Virus record (IMG/VR): IMGVR_UViG_3300005617_000005
Coordinates: 1 to 64,000 of that record
Strand: one strand, 5' to 3'
From: a virus
DNA length: 64,000 nucleotides
Within the stretch, counting starts at the first letter, position 1, and each line of letters opens with the position of its first letter. Below are positions 8,150 through 60,377 of this stretch, one piece after another. Under the pieces are notes generated by a model that was not told the DNA's origin, ran no database searches, and worked only from the letters and a program-made list of their open reading frames with translations. The position numbers and the translations under genes are program-made.

Positions 8150-8169
8150 ACGCGCAGGCGGTGCAATTT

Positions 8170-8337
8170 CTATGTGGGCGAACCCGAAGCGCCACCGGCG
8201 GCGCCGCCTTGCGCGATGCCCTTGGCCGTATCCGACGTCGGAAGGCTCTTCGGGCGGATGAAGAGAAAGTAGACGGCCGTCCCTACAATTCCGAGGCCGC
8301 CAACCACCAAAAGTGCCTTCTTCGTCGACTTCTTCAT
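8170..8337 (-). CDS. Small membrane protein (55 aa)
   Basis: Starts MKKSTKKALLVVGGLGIVG and continues TAVYFLFIRPKS into a Gly/Ala/Ser tail: a short basic N-terminus, one glycine-rich span, and a basic stop-transfer end. The gene is supported by a minus-strand TAGTGT six bases before the ATG and by its resemblance in layout to other one-span proteins of the virion block. It sits upstream of the 7843 gene on the same strand. Confidence 0.7.
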   Translation of the reverse strand: MKKSTKKALLVVGGLGIVGTAVYFLFIRPKSLPTSDTAKGIAQGGAAGGASGSPT

Positions 8338-8343
8338 TCCCTG

Positions 8344-8349
8344 ACACTA
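8344..8349 (-). promoter_or_regulatory. -10-like hexamer TAGTGT for leaderless start (minus strand)
   Basis: Minus-strand TAGTGT six bases before ATG at 8337; diverges from the plus-strand promoter at 8403-8432. Confidence 0.5.
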
Positions 8350-8402
8350 CCACGGGTGGAAATTGCACCGCATCGCCTGGGACGAAGTCTCTGCGCCAGT
8401 GA

Positions 8403-8432
8403 TTGCATCGGTGCCCGATCCGCGCGTACACT
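8403..8432 (+). promoter_or_regulatory. Promoter TTGCAT-N18-TACACT, leaderless
   Basis: TTGCAT at 8403-8408, 18-base spacer, TACACT at 8427-8432, then seven bases to GTG 8440. Confidence 0.5.
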
Positions 8433-8439
8433 CCCCGGT

Positions 8440-10083
8440 GTGGCCAGCTACAGCGAGATCATGGCAAAGCAGCGTGACGCTGCACCCGATCACGCCGCAG
8501 CGTCGCGCAAACGCGTACCGGTCCTTCATGCAGACGAGAGGAAAAAAATGAAGCGCAAGCGACGAGCAACGAAAGCCCAGCTTCGGGCGCTCAAGAAAGC
8601 TCGAGCGGCGAAGCGCCGCAAGCACGCCGGCGAGGGCGTCGTCCGTCGCGCGAAGAGCGGCAAGTTCTCGAAGCGCGGCAAACACATTGCCGGTCGCGTC
8701 GGTGCGGAAGCACGTCGTCGTCGGCGAGGAAAGAAGCGTCGTCGCAGCGCGCGCGAGGCAGCACCGCCGCGCACGAAGCGAAACCGCGCAGCCACGAAGG
8801 CGCAGAAGCGCTATTTGCGCGCCGCACGCAAGGCGAAAAAGCGCCGGAACACGTCGTCGCAGAAGGAGCTTCTGGCCGCGATCCGCGGATTGAAGCCCTA
8901 CGCACCTCGTCGCAAGAAGCGAAAAAAGGGCAAGCGACGCAGTGGCAAGAGCACCAAGCGCTTGACGAAGCGCACGAAACGCGCTTCGCTACGGAAAGCG
9001 AGCACTCGTGCGGGGATGTCGAGGCGTTCAGCGAAAAAGAGGAAGAGCATGGCCCGCAAGAGGAAAAAGTCAGGTCGTCGTCGCAAGGGACATCGTCGCG
9101 CCACGAAGAAACAACTTCGTGCGCTCTCGAAGGCGCGTGCTCAGCGCAAGCGCAACTTGCGCCGCGGTCGTGGCCGTCGCCATCGAGTGAAGGGCTACGT
9201 CGCTCGTCGGCGCAAGTCGCGTTGGCGAGTTCCGTCGCACCTCTCGCGAGAGGCGCGTCGTCGTCGCCACGCGCACGCATTCGACAACCCGATGGACGGG
9301 ATCGAGTTCGGCATCGCGCTCTTCACCGGTCTCATCGGCTACGGCGCGATGAGCTTCGGTCGCCGCTACCTCGCTGCTCACCGACCGGAGGCGAGCGGAT
9401 CGCTTTCGGGCGTGATGGCGATGGAGCTCGCACCGATGGATTGGAAGCAGTGGTTGCTCGGCGCCGTTCTCACGATCGGTCCGACAGTCGGCGGCCACTT
9501 CATCAAGAACAAACCGCTTCGCAGCGTCGTCCAGGGCTTCGGCTTTGGCGCCGGCATCGCGACCGCGGGCAAAGCGCTCGACGACGGCATCGCCATGCTC
9601 ACGAAGAAGACCGAGCTCGGCGCGCTGCTCTACGCGCCGGAAGTTTCGGCGCAGGCGTACACCAAGCCGCAAGGCACGGGCGCCGGCGCTCTTCCGGAAG
9701 GCGAGTGCGAAACGTGCGGGCGCAGCGACGGTCTCGGCAAGTGCTGCCGTTCGTCGTACACGGGCGCACCGAACCGCATGGACGTGCGAGACAACCCGCC
9801 GTCCGTTCCTCCGGCGCAAGCCCAACCCCCGATCGAGGCACCGCCGCCCGTCGTCAACAACATGACGCCGCGTGACATCCCCGTGCCGCCGGCGCCTCCT
9901 CCGCCGCCGCAGATCGCGCAACCGCAGACGCCGACGTTCACGCCGCAAGTGCCCATCGGGCAAGCGTCGCCGAGCCCGGTGCCCGCAGCACCGATGCCGC
10001 AATCGCCGATCGTCGGCGTGCGTGGCTTCCCGAACAGGATCGCCGGACCCAACTACAACTGGGGCAACCCGAGCGACAACTGA
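8440..10083 (+). CDS. Histone-H1-like basic repeats fused to membrane domain and Pro-rich tail
   Basis: About 547 residues. After roughly 36 ordinary residues, a stretch of about 245 is extraordinarily rich in Lys and Arg, with three copies of a motif like RRATKAQLRALKKARA. An R/H-rich end (ARRRRHAHAFDNP) leads into hydrophobic segments (IEFGIALFTGLIGYGAMSF; WLLGAVLTIGPTVGGHF), a CETCGRSDGLGKCC cysteine cluster and a Pro-rich C-terminus. It probably binds DNA and sits in a membrane, perhaps tethering or condensing the genome. GTG 8440 has the TANNNT box; ATG 8548 has GAGAGG six bases upstream and is a credible alternative start. Confidence 0.75.
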   Translation: MASYSEIMAKQRDAAPDHAAASRKRVPVLHADERKKMKRKRRATKAQLRALKKARAAKRRKHAGEGVVRRAKSGKFSKRGKHIAGRVGAEARRRRRGKKRRRSAREAAPPRTKRNRAATKAQKRYLRAARKAKKRRNTSSQKELLAAIRGLKPYAPRRKKRKKGKRRSGKSTKRLTKRTKRASLRKASTRAGMSRRSAKKRKSMARKRKKSGRRRKGHRRATKKQLRALSKARAQRKRNLRRGRGRRHRVKGYVARRRKSRWRVPSHLSREARRRRHAHAFDNPMDGIEFGIALFTGLIGYGAMSFGRRYLAAHRPEASGSLSGVMAMELAPMDWKQWLLGAVLTIGPTVGGHFIKNKPLRSVVQGFGFGAGIATAGKALDDGIAMLTKKTELGALLYAPEVSAQAYTKPQGTGAGALPEGECETCGRSDGLGKCCRSSYTGAPNRMDVRDNPPSVPPAQAQPPIEAPPPVVNNMTPRDIPVPPAPPPPPQIAQPQTPTFTPQVPIGQASPSPVPAAPMPQSPIVGVRGFPNRIAGPNYNWGNPSDN

Positions 10084-10100: not shown

Positions 10101-10140
10101 TGCTTGAGCCCCAACGACGAAAGTCCGAGGGGCTGAGGCA
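10101..10140 (+). promoter_or_regulatory. Structured RNA element, copy A, before capsid candidate
   Basis: A 40-base element that folds as an outer stem (TGC/GCA), an AGCCCC/GGGGCT stem, a small internal loop, and an apical GAC-GAAA-GTC hairpin. The copy at 11733 keeps the layout while the apical pairs change to GGA-GAAA-TCC. Not a normal terminator: no T-tract follows. Confidence 0.55.
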
Positions 10141-10206
10141 TTGAAAAGACCAGAGTCGCTCGTCATACAGGTCTAGGAACTACCGAGCGAAAAGAAAGAA
10201 GAAGAC

Positions 10207-11673
10207 ATGCAGAAGATCACGCAAGAGCGCAGCCGTCCCGAGCCGACCCGAAGCATCAACCGCACCCCGATCGTCAATCGGATCAAGGTCGACAAGGACC
10301 TTCGTGACCGACGCACGATCGGTCTCGGCGTGCGCCCCGACGAGAGCAAGCTGAAGGCGGCGAACGCCGGCCTCGGCAAGCTCAAGGACGGACACATGCC
10401 CGATCCGAAGGAGCTCGGACTCGGCGCTCCGTTCAAGGGCGGCGAAGGCGCGCCCCCGATCGCGTCGCAGATCGTTCGTCGTGGCCTCGGCGATTTCGTC
10501 GACGCCATCCGCAACTCGGTCGCGTGCCCGATCTGGAACATGCCGGTCGTCGAGAGCTCGCGCGGCACCTTCGGTGGCCCGCTGCTCGACACGGACATCA
10601 CCCGCCTCTTCGGAGCGAGGATCAATCCGTTCGGCTGGAACGACACGACCGAGGGTCTCGACTCGTTCGACACCACGCTCGCGGAGAACGGCAAGACGCA
10701 GACGGCGATGCTCGTTTGCGCGGTCGGCTGGAAGCTCCAGCCCGAGCCGCTCTGCTTCACGCAGGAGATCAACGCGTGGACGGCGCCGGAGTCGACGGCG
10801 ACGCAGCCGTTCTCGCCGAACAACTTCACCACGAACGACCTCGCTGCGATCCTCGGCCAAGCCGTGGACACGCAGGACTTCGAGCCCGCCGTGCTCGAGT
10901 GGGGCTGGCCGCAGAACTACGCGTGCTGGCACATGGTCCGTGGCTACCACCTCCGCTGGATGGTCGGTCAGCACACGAACATCTTCGACGAGTCGCTCCG
11001 CAACACCGCGGTGATGCCGACGAACGCGCAAGAGGGCTCGGCGTCCTCGAGCGAGGTCGACATCAACGAGTTCATCCGTCGGGTGAACGACCGGTACACG
11101 GGTACCGGCGGTCTCGGCAGCAACATGGTCGCCCTCAAGTTCGACACGATCCGCCTCGGCGTCGTGGCGGGCGGTGGCAACGTCGGTCGCTTCGCTCCGT
11201 CGCGTACGGGCGAGCTCGCTGGCGCGACCTACGGCGGCATGGACCTCCGCAGCTTGCTCAAGAACAACGACGAGTTCCGCAAGCTCACGATCCCGTACTT
11301 CCTCAACGCGGCGATCCCGATCGGGCTCTTCGCGCAGGAGTCGGACAAGTTCCAGGCGGACATCATGCGCGCGTACCTCTCGGCGACCCAGTCGCCGGGC
11401 AACGCGGGCGGAACCGTTCCCCCGGCGATCGTCGACGCGGCGAACATCGCGCTCGGCCCGACGTCGGCGTTCCTCGAACGCACGATGGATGGCGCTGCGG
11501 ACGTCTCGCAGACCGTCTTCTCGCAGCGACGCCTGTTCAAGGGTGGCGATCTCAAGGTCGAGGTCGACATCAAGGGCTTCGAGGTCGACGAGGACTGGTA
11601 CAACGTCCTCAAGAACAACCCGGAGCTCCGGGACGCGTTCATGTGCGAGTGCGGCTGCGGCTGGCCGAAGTGA
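10207..11673 (+). CDS. Major capsid protein candidate
   Basis: 488 residues, soluble, no spans. The first 95 residues are basic and contain four GLG tripeptides (39-41, 55-57, 71-73, 93-95), as if a flexible or cleaved N-terminus. The rest is beta-rich (TAMLVCAVGWKLQPEP; YHLRWMVGQH; VALKFDTIRLGVVAG) and ends in a Cys-rich tip (CECGCGW). It is a long protein in the centre of the virion block and is followed by two smaller beta-rich proteins. I see nothing typical of the HK97 fold; a double-jelly-roll fold is possible but unproven. AAGAAAGAAGAAG precedes the ATG. Confidence 0.5.
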   Translation: MQKITQERSRPEPTRSINRTPIVNRIKVDKDLRDRRTIGLGVRPDESKLKAANAGLGKLKDGHMPDPKELGLGAPFKGGEGAPPIASQIVRRGLGDFVDAIRNSVACPIWNMPVVESSRGTFGGPLLDTDITRLFGARINPFGWNDTTEGLDSFDTTLAENGKTQTAMLVCAVGWKLQPEPLCFTQEINAWTAPESTATQPFSPNNFTTNDLAAILGQAVDTQDFEPAVLEWGWPQNYACWHMVRGYHLRWMVGQHTNIFDESLRNTAVMPTNAQEGSASSSEVDINEFIRRVNDRYTGTGGLGSNMVALKFDTIRLGVVAGGGNVGRFAPSRTGELAGATYGGMDLRSLLKNNDEFRKLTIPYFLNAAIPIGLFAQESDKFQADIMRAYLSATQSPGNAGGTVPPAIVDAANIALGPTSAFLERTMDGAADVSQTVFSQRRLFKGGDLKVEVDIKGFEVDEDWYNVLKNNPELRDAFMCECGCGWPK

Positions 11674-11732
11674 TTCGGCACGAAGCAGATTGACGGCGCG
11701 CGAGCGCAATCTTTTCGCTTCGACATTCTAAC

Positions 11733-11772
11733 TGCCTGAGCCCCGACGGAGAAATCCCGAGGGGCTAAGGCA
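11733..11772 (+). promoter_or_regulatory. Structured RNA element, copy B, before second capsid candidate
   Basis: Same 40-base length and fold as 10101-10140, with compensating changes in the apical stem (GGA/TCC for GAC/GTC) and T to C opposite G in the outer stem. Both copies are followed by TTGAA(A/G)AG. Here the element ends 13 bases before the ATG. Confidence 0.55.
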
Positions 11773-11785
11773 TTGAAGAGGCCCG

Positions 11786-12532
11786 ATGCCGAAGCTGACA
11801 GAAGAAGAGACCGAACGCCTCCTGGACAAGATGGTCGAAGACCGCATCAAAGCGGTCGGCCTCGGTGGTCTCGGACAGCATTCGCCGATCGTCTCGCCGT
11901 CCGGCCTTGGAGCTGCACCGCGCGTCGGGCTCGGCTGCGGTGAAGATGCGGTCGTCCAGATGCTCCACCACGGCTACCCGCGGCTCGCGCTCGTTCGCGC
12001 GCTCGGCGTGCCGCTCGCTCCGTGGGTCATCAGCATCCCCTTCACGTTCGACACGCCAGAAGCAGAGCAGACGCTCGCGAACCAGGGCACGGACGGCACG
12101 ATCACGCAGGATGTGTTCGTCGAGGCAATGGTCACACGCGTGACCATCGATCGCGTGCCCGTCAGCCCGTTCGATGCTCCGGGCGACTACGCCTACAACT
12201 TCACGTCCGGCATCGAAGCAACGCTGCAAGTCGACGGGACGCCGCGCTACGAAGTCACGACCGACTTCACGCCGCTCTCGACGCTCACCGACGTGTTCAA
12301 CGGCAACTCGAAGTGGCCGTTCTCGTGGTGCTTCACGTACATGCAGCAACTCAAGATGCAGCTCCGGAATCGCATCCAGCTTCCGGATGCGCCGGTGACC
12401 GTGATCATCAGCTTCCGCGGTTGGCAGCCGGTGACCGATCTCCTCGTCAACATGACGAACCGAAACGCCGTCGAGCGTTTGCGGCAACTCGGCTACACCG
12501 TTCCGGACAGCTATCTCGACTACTTGCGCTGA
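11786..12532 (+). CDS. Capsid-associated beta protein (vertex or minor capsid candidate)
   Basis: 248 residues. A helical N-terminus (TEEETERLLDKMVEDR) is followed by four GLG tripeptides within the first 50 residues. The remainder looks like a single beta sandwich (VFVEAMVTRVTIDRVPV; SGIEATLQVDG; VTVIISFRGWQPV). It directly follows the main capsid candidate and has the same RNA element upstream. Jelly-roll vertex protein is an inference. Confidence 0.5.
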   Translation: MPKLTEEETERLLDKMVEDRIKAVGLGGLGQHSPIVSPSGLGAAPRVGLGCGEDAVVQMLHHGYPRLALVRALGVPLAPWVISIPFTFDTPEAEQTLANQGTDGTITQDVFVEAMVTRVTIDRVPVSPFDAPGDYAYNFTSGIEATLQVDGTPRYEVTTDFTPLSTLTDVFNGNSKWPFSWCFTYMQQLKMQLRNRIQLPDAPVTVIISFRGWQPVTDLLVNMTNRNAVERLRQLGYTVPDSYLDYLR

Positions 12533-41790: not shown

Positions 41791-41805
41791 AAGTGCGCGT
41801 ATTCT
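41776..41805 (+). promoter_or_regulatory. Promoter TTGCGT-N18-TATTCT, leaderless
   Basis: TTGCGT 41776-41781, 18-base spacer, TATTCT 41800-41805, six bases to ATG 41812. Confidence 0.55.
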
Positions 41806-41811
41806 CTCGCC

Positions 41812-42579
41812 ATGGGTAGCCCGTCCGAAAAAGAAGCCGATCTCCAAGCACGTGTCGAACGCCTCGAGCAACTGCTCGCGATCTTGCAAGGCCAGAGCGG
41901 TGCTCTCGGATTGCAAACGCCCGGCGCGGCGCGCAACGTCATCAACTCCGCACTGCCCGCGTACACGTACTCGAACGGTGTGATCACCGGCAACGCAGTC
42001 GGCGCGATGGGCGCGAAGGACGGCGTGCTCAACGTCGCGAACGACGTCGTCTTCCTCCCTGGAGGAATCGCGGTCGTCGCATCGCAGCAAGGTGCGTACG
42101 TCGTCACCAACCCCGGAAGCGCGACCGAAGCGTTCGTGCTCACGCGCGTTTCGTGGATGCCCGAGGGCGCCACCATCAAAACCGGCTACCTCGTCCGCAT
42201 GGGCGGTGAGGGCACCGTCTTCCAGAACACCGTTTGGGAGTCGATGGCCGTTGCAGAAGAGTTCGTGGTCGGCGCGATCGACTCGCAGTTCTTCCCGCAG
42301 AAGGTCGAGATTCGAGCGCAGCTCGTGGGTGGACAAATCGCCGGTCTCGCGACCGTGCCGATTCTCTCGACGAGCAGCTACATCGGCCTCACGCGCGCGG
42401 TGTTCGACACCGGCGCGGCGACGGTCATGTACGCCGCAACTGTCGGTGGCGTCGAAGGCATCACGCCCGGCTATCTCGGAACCGCAGCGCTCACCGTCCA
42501 AGCGGTCATCGCGGCAGGCACGATCAACGCGGCCGACGTTTCGACGCTGCACATCCTGATCACCAACGGCCAGCGCTAA
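41812..42579 (+). CDS. Spike/fibre protein A with N-terminal coiled coil
   Basis: 255 residues. Residues 1-30 form a coiled coil (EADLQARVERLEQLLAILQG) shared with the next protein and, more weakly, with the 45823 product. The body is beta-rich (VTNPGSATEAFVLTRVSWMP; VRMGGEGTVFQNTVW). The layout fits an appendage whose N-terminus docks to the virion and whose C-terminus varies. Start set by TATTCT. Confidence 0.65.
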   Translation: MGSPSEKEADLQARVERLEQLLAILQGQSGALGLQTPGAARNVINSALPAYTYSNGVITGNAVGAMGAKDGVLNVANDVVFLPGGIAVVASQQGAYVVTNPGSATEAFVLTRVSWMPEGATIKTGYLVRMGGEGTVFQNTVWESMAVAEEFVVGAIDSQFFPQKVEIRAQLVGGQIAGLATVPILSTSSYIGLTRAVFDTGAATVMYAATVGGVEGITPGYLGTAALTVQAVIAAGTINAADVSTLHILITNGQR

Positions 42580-42581
42580 CG

Positions 42582-42611
42582 TTGCTCTTACCGTGGGTCA
42601 GCGTGTAAGCT
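42582..42611 (+). promoter_or_regulatory. Promoter TTGCTC-N18-TAAGCT, leaderless
   Basis: TTGCTC 42582-42587, 18-base spacer, TAAGCT 42606-42611, six bases to ATG 42618. Confidence 0.55.
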
Positions 42612-42617
42612 GACGCC

Positions 42618-44360
42618 ATGGGCGCACCGAACGAGAAAGAATCCGACCTCCGAGCTCGTGTCGAACGGCTCGAGCACCTCCTCGCCATGTTGCAGGGAGG
42701 CAGTGCACCGGGTCAGACCTTTGCCGGTCCCATCGTCGCGAACGAAGCGGCAATGGTCGCGCTCACCGGCATTCAAGACGGTGAGCAGGTCTTCGTTCTG
42801 AGCCACCGCTCGATCTGGACGAAGCGAAACGGCGTCGCCGGCACACAAGGTGTCCCGCCGCTCTTTCCACACGAGGTCGATCAAGCCACCGACCTCACCG
42901 GCGTCTTTGCCCGAACGCCATATTCCGATCCCGCGCTCCGTACCGGCATCAACGACGTCTTCATCGATCCGGCGAATCCAGCGGCAGACGATGAGAATGA
43001 TGGCCTCACTGCGCTGACACCGCTCGCGACAGGCTACGAGCTTTTCCGCCGCTGGGGTTGGGGCGCATCGAAACCGATCGTTGGACCAAACCTCGCGACG
43101 TCGCCCGACGGTTTCACAAACGTCCACATTCAAAGCGCCATCCTTTCGCCCGACACGCTTCCGGTGCGCATCACGATCGCGACCAACGGCAGCATGCGCT
43201 TCATTGGCGGCGCGCCGACGACGATTCGCGCGGGAACACTCACCGCTGCGAGCGTCGCAATGAATGCGGCAGTACCGCTCGGGGGAACGCGCCTTCGACT
43301 CACCGACGCCGCTGTCGTTTCGTGGGTCCCGGACATGGCCCCGAATCGTCGCGGTCGAATCACAACGGGGGCGCAAGCCGGCGCGACCTTCCAACCACAA
43401 AGCAATGTCGGAGCTGGCGGCGCTGTCGATTGCAGCGCAGCGCAAACAACCAACGAGCCGGGCTTCAGCCAAGTGCCGACGACCGTCACGCCGGCTGCGG
43501 GCAGTGCCTACGTGATCGAAGCGCTCGTGCAGTGCAACTTCGGTCAAGTGGAGATCACGCAAGAGCAAAATCCTGATTTCGGTGGGTTCAACAGCTTCAT
43601 CAACTTCATCGATCTGAATTTCCCCGTCATCGGAACAAACGCTGTCGGGTGGGAACCCGTCACGGCAGCGGGCACATTCAGCCAACCGTTCTTCAATTTC
43701 TACCAGTGCACGTTCGAGCGAAACCTCGATGTCACCTCGTGCTCCTCCGTGCAGCTCATCGCTTGCTACTTCTTCAACATGCTCGTGCTCAACTACTGCA
43801 CGGGCGGCATTCAAGCGGTCAACGGCGGTGGGATGAATTCCATCGCGCCTGGCGTCTCGGGCGTCAAATGGGCGGCGGTCAGTGATCAGAGCTTGCTCGA
43901 TTTCAACTTCGTCGCGAACCACTCCCTGATCAACCTGATGGGGAATTCGGTCGGAGGCGGGTTCGCGTCGTGGAACGCTGACACTCTTGCCGGGTACAAC
44001 ACCGCAGGGCACGGCGTGATCGTCGGCGTTCGAGGCTTCGCAGGAATGCGCGCGCAAGTCACCTTCGCCAGACTCGTTTGGGGAAACGGCAACGCTGGCG
44101 CCGGTCTTCTCATCGGTGCGAATTGCAATGGAACCGGCGCGCCACAAAACATCACCGGGGTACAGAGCGACTTCAAGCTCGGCAACAAGCTCGTCGGTTG
44201 GTGGTTCAACGATGCGACGGCGGCGTACAATCCGATCGGCGGTAGCGTCGCGACGACATGGGCAGCTCTCGCAGCGGCCGAAGGTGCAGCGGGCTTCGGC
44301 GGAAACGCCCACGAGCTCGACTCGAACAGCCACTTTGCCGCAGCCGAGACGACAGCGTAA
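42618..44360 (+). CDS. Spike/fibre protein B, large beta-helix type
   Basis: 580 residues. N-terminal coiled coil (ESDLRARVERLEHLLAMLQG) nearly identical to that of protein A. Then a long beta-rich body rich in Asn, Gly and Ala with the look of a right-handed beta helix (FYQCTFERNLDVTSCSSVQL, then NYCTGGIQAVNGGG). Such folds are typical of tailspike depolymerases and receptor-binding spikes. No catalytic residues can be assigned by eye. Confidence 0.65.
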   Translation: MGAPNEKESDLRARVERLEHLLAMLQGGSAPGQTFAGPIVANEAAMVALTGIQDGEQVFVLSHRSIWTKRNGVAGTQGVPPLFPHEVDQATDLTGVFARTPYSDPALRTGINDVFIDPANPAADDENDGLTALTPLATGYELFRRWGWGASKPIVGPNLATSPDGFTNVHIQSAILSPDTLPVRITIATNGSMRFIGGAPTTIRAGTLTAASVAMNAAVPLGGTRLRLTDAAVVSWVPDMAPNRRGRITTGAQAGATFQPQSNVGAGGAVDCSAAQTTNEPGFSQVPTTVTPAAGSAYVIEALVQCNFGQVEITQEQNPDFGGFNSFINFIDLNFPVIGTNAVGWEPVTAAGTFSQPFFNFYQCTFERNLDVTSCSSVQLIACYFFNMLVLNYCTGGIQAVNGGGMNSIAPGVSGVKWAAVSDQSLLDFNFVANHSLINLMGNSVGGGFASWNADTLAGYNTAGHGVIVGVRGFAGMRAQVTFARLVWGNGNAGAGLLIGANCNGTGAPQNITGVQSDFKLGNKLVGWWFNDATAAYNPIGGSVATTWAALAAAEGAAGFGGNAHELDSNSHFAAAETTA

Positions 44361-58485: not shown

Positions 58486-60180
58486 ATGAAGAAAAAGAAA
58501 CGCAGGGAACGATCCCGTCGCGAACGCGCTGACACGGCTGACGCGACAGATCGCGTGACGTTCAACCTCACGGAGATGAGGAACGCCGAACGTCTGCTCG
58601 AATTCCGTGGCGATGATCTCCGCTACGTCGGCCCGTGGAAGATGTGGCTCACGTGGGACGGGCGACGCTGGAAACTCGACGAGGATGGGGGCGCGCTCCG
58701 CTACGCAAAGGAAAACGCGCAGGTCATGGCAGCCGAAGCCGACGTCGCGGTGAAGAACGCGCAATCGACCGTCGACGAGGAGATCGAAGAGGACGCCGAA
58801 TCGATCGCGAGCGAAGAGAAGAAGCGCGGTCGACCGCGAAAGCCGAAGGCGTCGACCGAAGCGCTCGGAATGCTCAAGGGCGCGTCCGCCTACAAGAAGT
58901 GGTGCGAGCAGAGCCAGAACTTCCGGAACCTCCAGAGCACGCTCTCCGTTGCGGCGTGCGACAAATCGGTCGCGCTCGTTCACGACCAACTCGACACGCA
59001 CCACTTTCTCTTCAACGTCGAGAACTGGACGATCAACCTGAAGACCGGCAAGAAGCAGCCGCAGTCGCGCGACGATCTCATCACGAAGGTCGCTGCCGTC
59101 GAGTTCCACTCGAAAGCGAAGTGCCCGCTCTGGGACAGGTTCGTGCGCGAGGCAATGGGCGGCGACATGGAGCTCGTCGGGTACCTGAAACGCTTCGTGG
59201 GCTACTCACTGACGGGCTCGACGGAGGAGCAAGCGCTCGTCTTCTTCTGGGGCTCGGGCAACAACGGCAAGAGCACGTTCCTCACGACGCTCTACAAAAT
59301 CTTCGGCGACTACGCCCTACGCGCCGCGCGCGGCATGCTCTTTCGCTCGAAGCACGGCGGCGAGCGCCATCCGACGACGCTCGTCAGCCTCCACGGCAAG
59401 CGCTTCGTGACGTGCAGTGAGATCGACGAGAACCAGGAGCTCGACGAGGGCCTCACGAAAGATCTCACCGGCAGCGATCCCATCAACGCGCGCCGCATGC
59501 GCGAAGACGAGTGGGTGTTCTTGCCGACGCACAAACTCTTTCTCGCCGGCAACCACAAGCCGCGCATCACGGGCACCGACAAAGGGATCTGGCGCCGAAA
59601 CAATCTCGTCCCGTGGACCGTCGCGGTCGCGAAGGACAAGGTGAACAAGAAGCTCGGCGACGAGCTGCTCGAAGAGGCCAGCGGCATCCTCAACTGGTGC
59701 ATCGAGGGCTGCATGGAATGGCAAGAGCGCGGACTTGATCCGCCCGAGGCCGTCATCGAAGCGACGAAGGAGTACCGCAAAGAGCAGGACGTCCTCGGTC
59801 AGTTCTTCGACGAGCGACTCGTGTTCGAGGAGAACGCACTGGCGGCTCGAGCCGACCTGCGAAAGATCTACGAGGACTGGTGCGAGGAGTTTGGCTACTT
59901 GCCCGTCGGCGCGCGGAAGTTCGCGCAGGCGCTCCGCGAGCTGAGCGTCGTTGATGGCTACGTGTGGGATCCGAACAAGGCCCAATCCGTCGACGGCTGG
60001 CGCGGCGTGCGCATCGCGACGAAGGCCGATCGCGCCAAGAAGGAGCTCGAGCGGCGCGGAAAACAGATGTCGAAGAAGGAACGGCGCGCGTTCAAGACGA
60101 TGGTGAAGAAGGCGAATAAAGGAGCAGTGAAGCTTCGGATCGTCCGGAACGACGAAACGAAGTCCCGAGGAGATCGCTAA
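58486..60180 (+). CDS. D5/P4-type SF3 replicative helicase
   Basis: 564 residues. A basic/helical N-terminus and D5_N-like region (WDRFVREAMGGDMELVGYLK), then an SF3 ATPase: Walker A GSGNNGKST (256-264), Walker B area CSEIDENQELD, and sensor LAGNHKPRITGTDKGIWRRN. The C-terminal winged-helix region is followed by a Lys/Arg tail. With the prim-pol next door it likely unwinds and primes at the origin. GGGG directly precedes the ATG. Confidence 0.9.
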   Translation: MKKKKRRERSRRERADTADATDRVTFNLTEMRNAERLLEFRGDDLRYVGPWKMWLTWDGRRWKLDEDGGALRYAKENAQVMAAEADVAVKNAQSTVDEEIEEDAESIASEEKKRGRPRKPKASTEALGMLKGASAYKKWCEQSQNFRNLQSTLSVAACDKSVALVHDQLDTHHFLFNVENWTINLKTGKKQPQSRDDLITKVAAVEFHSKAKCPLWDRFVREAMGGDMELVGYLKRFVGYSLTGSTEEQALVFFWGSGNNGKSTFLTTLYKIFGDYALRAARGMLFRSKHGGERHPTTLVSLHGKRFVTCSEIDENQELDEGLTKDLTGSDPINARRMREDEWVFLPTHKLFLAGNHKPRITGTDKGIWRRNNLVPWTVAVAKDKVNKKLGDELLEEASGILNWCIEGCMEWQERGLDPPEAVIEATKEYRKEQDVLGQFFDERLVFEENALAARADLRKIYEDWCEEFGYLPVGARKFAQALRELSVVDGYVWDPNKAQSVDGWRGVRIATKADRAKKELERRGKQMSKKERRAFKTMVKKANKGAVKLRIVRNDETKSRGDR

Positions 60181-60377
60181 ATTACCGATGTTTTTGGGGT
60201 GCCTCGGGACTTCAGAGGGTTTTCTGGGTTAGCACGCACACGAAACCAAAATAAATACCGATGCAGAATGCACACATGAATATTTCTCGTTTCTACAGAG
60301 CTGATATGCGGATCAAGTCCCGATGTCCCGAGACCCCTCAAAAACACCGAGAATTTGACGATCTCCTCGGGACTTCG
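60158..60377. other. Candidate replication origin (AT-rich, inverted repeats)
   Basis: A 19-base arm at 60158-60176 is perfectly complementary to 60359-60377. Inside are another CCTCGGGACTTC (60202-60213), a CAAGTCCCGA (60314-60323) and TCCCGAG (60326-60332), around an AT-rich core (60241-60310). TACCGATG also occurs twice. The region lies between the helicase and the prim-pol genes. Confidence 0.5.

Follow-up and report, generated by a model that had tools for sequence, protein, structure and literature searches.

A short, stable hairpin that stands twice in the window (the whole stretch of DNA analysed here, i.e., positions 1 to 64,000 of IMG/VR virus record IMGVR_UViG_3300005617_000005) appears, by computation, to recur in dozens of uncultured bacterial viruses, usually between two virion-protein genes. 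Sequence comparison strongly supports its being a conserved structured RNA, and most likely it would tune the amounts in which the neighbouring proteins are made. Two forms are distinguished, namely form A, which is present in the window, and a sister form, A'. The window copies and their surroundings are as follows.

8161–10083, + strand: upstream ORF of 640 aa, function unknown; its stop lies 17 nt before copy 1
10101–10140, + strand: hairpin A, copy 1, in the leader of gene 1; identified by sequence, fold and covariance model (72.9 bits, as a training member)
10141–10148, + strand: purine-rich tail TTGAAAAG, adjoining copy 1; conserved beside the hairpin when tails are compared
10156–10190, + strand: possible second leader hairpin between copy 1 and gene 1, with a 7-bp stem (CGCTCG/CGAGCG side)
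10207–11673, + strand: gene 1, 488 aa, conserved in 37 IMG/VR loci; putative capsid gene
11733–11772, + strand: hairpin A, copy 2, directly 5' of gene 2; identified by sequence, fold and covariance model (71.8 bits, as a training member)
11773–11781, + strand: purine-rich tail TTGAAGAGG after copy 2; plausible, putative Shine-Dalgarno sequence of gene 2
11786–12532, + strand: gene 2, 248 aa, with a beta-rich, low-confidence structure model; putative capsid gene

An earlier note on this DNA had described the two hairpins as equal in length and fold, and sequence and folding bear this out. Each copy spans 40 nt and consists of a 5-bp outer stem, a single mismatch, a six-pair AGCCCC/GGGGCU stem, a 3x3 internal loop (RAC/CGA), a 3-bp apical stem and a closing GAAA loop; the internal loop and the tetraloop are present in both copies, as the note had it. 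Both adopt the same fold, with energies of -23.1 and -24.2 kcal/mol (z about -4.6), and none of 200 shuffles was as stable. Where three apical pairs had been said to change, only two of the three do: between copy 1 (GAC/GTC) and copy 2 (GGA/TCC) an A-U pair becomes G-C and a C-G pair becomes A-U, the changed positions still pair, and the first G-C pair is the same in both. The outer stem contributes a further U-G to C-G change. A consensus pattern allowing up to three mismatches matched the window exactly twice and 100 dinucleotide-shuffled versions not at all, and in the whole 77,874-base virus record hairpin A was found only at these two sites.

Form A is also present in relatives. In L127, whose gene 1 protein is 42% identical to that of the window, it precedes both gene 1 and gene 2, and in L124 (58% identical) it precedes gene 2. 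The apical stems of these copies read GGC-GCAA-GCC, GCC-GAAA-GGC and GGUC-GAAA-GACC, and their outer stems carry U-A/C-G and G-C/C-G swaps, with the RAC/CGA loop kept and the tetraloop always GNRA. Across the five form A sequences, standard pairs fill 95.7% of the pair cells, and both partners are replaced in four pairs as against a mean of 1.1 in column shuffles (reached in 2 of 500), figures that come from only five copies in alignments fitted to the model and from shuffles that ignore relatedness. The elements are 74–88% identical to one another, and their 50-nt flanks 38–62%, which is about the level of shuffled sequence. The possibility, raised in the earlier note, that relatives might have no conserved structure was checked, and the fold was found to be kept at homologous sites through compensating changes. 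Pattern searches of IMG/VR gave at least 120 matches to a loose pattern (CCCCRACG...CCGAGGGG) and nine stretches with a tighter AGCCCC pattern; seven of the latter (L017, L040 and L281–L285) differ in their loops, lack a matching outer stem and were excluded as unrelated. A BLASTN search of the form A element against INPHARED returned only partial matches (best E 0.1). A weak match to the form A model (E 0.005) at L335:1501-1549, in record G042 of a close relative (the virus of L160) and far from gene 1, is possibly another copy.

More distant relatives carry hairpin A' at the same position, 5' of gene 1; it comprises an outer stem, a CCCCGG/CCGGGG helix, a UA bulge and GGC-NNCGA-GCC. When the form A covariance model was run over the gene 1 family, its four best forward-strand matches outside the training set were the A' sites of L150, L133, L143 and L151 (E 0.1–0.6), and over whole records it also picked up the A' copies of L203. 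Each match is weak alone, and the argument is that the matches coincide with A' sites; because of the shared place and the model score, and not from a tree, A and A' are probably one motif. Beyond the gene 1 family, the A' core pattern and model found 23 further IMG/VR loci (E 1e-15 to 1e-5), and the strict core pattern 32 stretches across all of IMG/VR, most records holding a single copy. At eleven loci A' adjoins a gpT-like major head gene, recognised in nine by Pfam PF10124, in L181 by PHROG and in L263 by identity (its head protein is 52% identical to the L217 protein), and in L234 it adjoins a PF09950 major capsid gene. The association with virion genes has its exceptions, as several other sites lie beside genes without a known function. 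These neighbours were surveyed as the nearest sense ORFs under simple ORF rules, a greedy gene caller being misleading in the GC-rich contigs.

Among 31 copies of A', both bases are exchanged in 7 of the 16 pairs, which lie mainly in the outer helix, and the inner core hardly varies. The covariation score, from an alignment fitted to the model, is 0.178 as against 0.095 in column shuffles, which ignore relatedness and of which none in 500 reached it. Between viruses the hairpins are 70–91% identical and their flanks mostly 36–64% (one pair at 70); at the sequence level, the hairpin is an island of conservation amid unrelated flanks. In 257 billion bases of GTDB, 14 core matches were found, all truncated to the core; because they lack the outer helix they were judged to be chance, and the hairpin is counted as virus-specific. 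For A', BLASTN against INPHARED likewise aligned only parts of the element (best E 8). One 49-kb contig (record G009, loci L203 and L258) holds three A' copies; two of them are identical and inverted relative to each other, one near 9.2 kb and one towards the far end, which may reflect a terminal inverted repeat or the assembly.

The hairpin starts 11–18 nt after the upstream stop codon at 23 of the 38 sites measured; the other 15, copy 2 among them, lie at other distances. A purine tract follows it, often the likely Shine-Dalgarno sequence of the next gene. Outside gene 1 leaders the start codon often comes 6–14 nt past the hairpin, and in most gene 1 leaders it is 50–77 nt away with a second hairpin in between (in the window, 13 nt separate copy 2 from the gene 2 ATG and 66 nt separate copy 1 from that of gene 1); consequently, no one function beside the start codon can account for every site. 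The candidate second hairpin of the window is weak by itself (z -0.5), and relatives have hairpins in a similar position. In 24 distant relatives (L133:5910-5945, L131:5934-5970, L137:5821-5857 and 21 other loci) a second conserved hairpin precedes gene 1, with a covarying 6-bp stem and a constant loop, GKCKGMCC..GAAACG; it was not found in the window's close clade, which has a differently looped hairpin at the same place.

Genes 1 and 2 had been called capsid candidates in the earlier note, and both copies do precede them; their identity as capsid genes is putative, since searches of Pfam and PHROG gave no family match for either and the structure models are weak. Gene 1 matched no PDB sequence, and its model reached a pLDDT of 29 with three input sequences, a failure probably due to so few having been used. 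The gene 2 model is beta-rich and weak (pLDDT 54), matched no PDB fold at E <= 0.001, and gave two matches of TM about 0.3 in a viral structure library. Gene 1 as a remote homologue of gpT received no support from hhalign, and no relation was detectable. Its homologues in IMG/VR often lie on contigs of 60–125 kb, and none was found in GTDB genomes or INPHARED phages. The window virus belongs to a large, unclassified virus group. A scan of the window ORFs revealed no clear capsid, terminase or tail family, but did give two Cpn10 (GroES) matches, a Prim-Pol, a D5-like primase-helicase and an SNF2 helicase. Elsewhere in the window there is a long inverted repeat (60158–60213 and 60322–60377; 56-nt arms, 84% complementary, 108 nt apart) and a 97-nt direct repeat (41795–41891 and 42601–42697; 77% identical) spanning the starts of two successive genes, which are probably paralogues.

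The hairpin is tentatively read as acting in cis, as an intercistronic mRNA element by which the messages of adjacent virion genes are stabilised or insulated; this interpretation is favoured here, though at slightly less than even odds. Its placement after the stop codon, together with the purine tract, suits an intercistronic element behind a terminating ribosome. The hairpin would fold just past the ribosome that terminates on the upstream gene, block 3'-to-5' decay of the upstream message, and separate the two cistrons or their translation; decay block and separation together would lead to neighbouring virion proteins being made in fixed, unequal amounts, akin to what is described for the intercistronic hairpin of the puf operon. 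As a guess, the nearly invariant core may mean that a protein or nuclease also recognises the hairpin. Position and sense orientation agree with the class of element proposed in the earlier note (processing, stabilising or translational control) and do not tell these three apart.

One alternative is a protein operator, i.e., a viral or host RNA-binding protein sitting on the hairpin and controlling translation of the next gene, e.g., in feedback by a virion protein. This is rather unlikely: no binder of the hairpin is known, the start codon lies far off in gene 1 leaders, and the presence of the same hairpin in viruses with unrelated head proteins speaks against feedback by the capsid protein itself, even though the A' core (CCCGG-UA-GGC..GCC-CCGGG) is nearly invariant while the outer helix covaries, form A keeps its RAC/CGA and GNRA loops, and the hairpin often ends close to a start codon. 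Described phage processing sites are intercistronic, with an internal loop or bulge interrupting their two stems. The hairpin resembles them in its position and in its two interrupted stems, and cleavage by an RNase III-like or other endonuclease would separate the messages; with only 14–16 base pairs, short for RNase III, a processing site is judged an unlikely identity.

Two further explanations carry less weight. It is improbable that the hairpins are a palindrome acting at the DNA level (for protein binding or packaging) or a small mobile repeat that spreads without RNA function. Paired positions covary in DNA palindromes as well, the counts of G-U versus A-C show no strand bias, and near-identical cores in unrelated viruses could reflect horizontal spread; against this, the hairpin, whose strand of action was assigned from its orientation to genes, has the same orientation as its neighbours wherever these are identifiable, GNRA tetraloops and bulges are typical of RNA, and there is mostly one copy per genome, at gene boundaries. 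Transcription termination was considered because a GC-rich hairpin of high stability comes shortly after a stop codon. An intrinsic terminator, with a T-run behind the hairpin, was rejected: no T-run follows the window copies (TTGAAAAG, TTGAAGAG) and a terminator scan of both sites was empty, so the earlier note's view that these are not ordinary terminators holds. A weak terminator or attenuator without a U-tract is highly improbable, given that the tails of other copies lack T-runs too and that distant relatives have separate T-run hairpins between genes 1 and 2. In the gene 1–gene 2 spacers of L130, L131, L137, L139 and L146, a GC-rich hairpin is followed by a T-rich tail, a terminator-like arrangement. 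No sigma-70 promoter pattern was found in a scan of either hairpin site.

A broader proposal can be formulated, which is conceivable though doubtful: the nearly invariant-core hairpin, common to Mu gpT-like phages and the large unclassified group, whose head proteins are unrelated, would be recognised by a single widespread host factor and act as a transferable expression-control module at the virion-gene boundaries of late mRNA. If true, very different uncultured viruses share one RNA module beside virion genes that is absent from Rfam 15, which would offer a testable handle on how late viral messages set virion protein ratios and possibly a marker for finding clusters of virion genes in viral dark matter, of which the window's own virus group is a part.

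The hairpin is classed here as a structured cis RNA of phage mRNA, an element of a known kind that is not listed in Rfam. The window had no match in Rfam 15 at the curated gathering score, permissive searches gave only sub-threshold matches, and no Rfam family reached its cut-off at ten A' loci; a RAGATH-10 match in L139 (E 0.35) was dropped, as it was not seen in L137. The Mu-gpT-DE RNA motif (RF03012), named in PMC7657543, is a conserved RNA whose name places it 3' of Mu gpT-like head genes, and A' lies downstream of such a gene in L172, L214, L217, L184, L257, L274, L229, L237 and L249; its model, at 53 positions, is of similar length. The window copies differ in location, gene 1 not being detectably related to gpT. 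In 8 + 16 records nothing scored above the 49-bit cut-off of the RF03012 covariance model, its weak matches, with E relaxed to 10, lay elsewhere than the hairpin sites, and a search of 274 genomes of one class found no example. The hairpin was accordingly rejected as Mu-gpT-DE; a distant tie may exist, the two being set apart by the covariance model with no RF03012 example alongside.

Two bacterial elements offer further parallels. The L17 downstream element (RF01708) is a conserved hairpin RNA with GNRA loops whose function is only inferred (PMC2864571); like the viral hairpin it stands just 3' of a highly expressed gene, but it belongs to ribosomal-protein genes of Firmicutes, and the window has no match to it. 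The hairpin of the Rhodobacter puf operon serves bacterial photosynthesis genes and has no sequence or covariation tie to the viral one, whose role is proposed by analogy; it is likewise a stable hairpin between two genes of one message, and it is described as contributing to unequal product amounts via segmental mRNA stability (PMC6238624).
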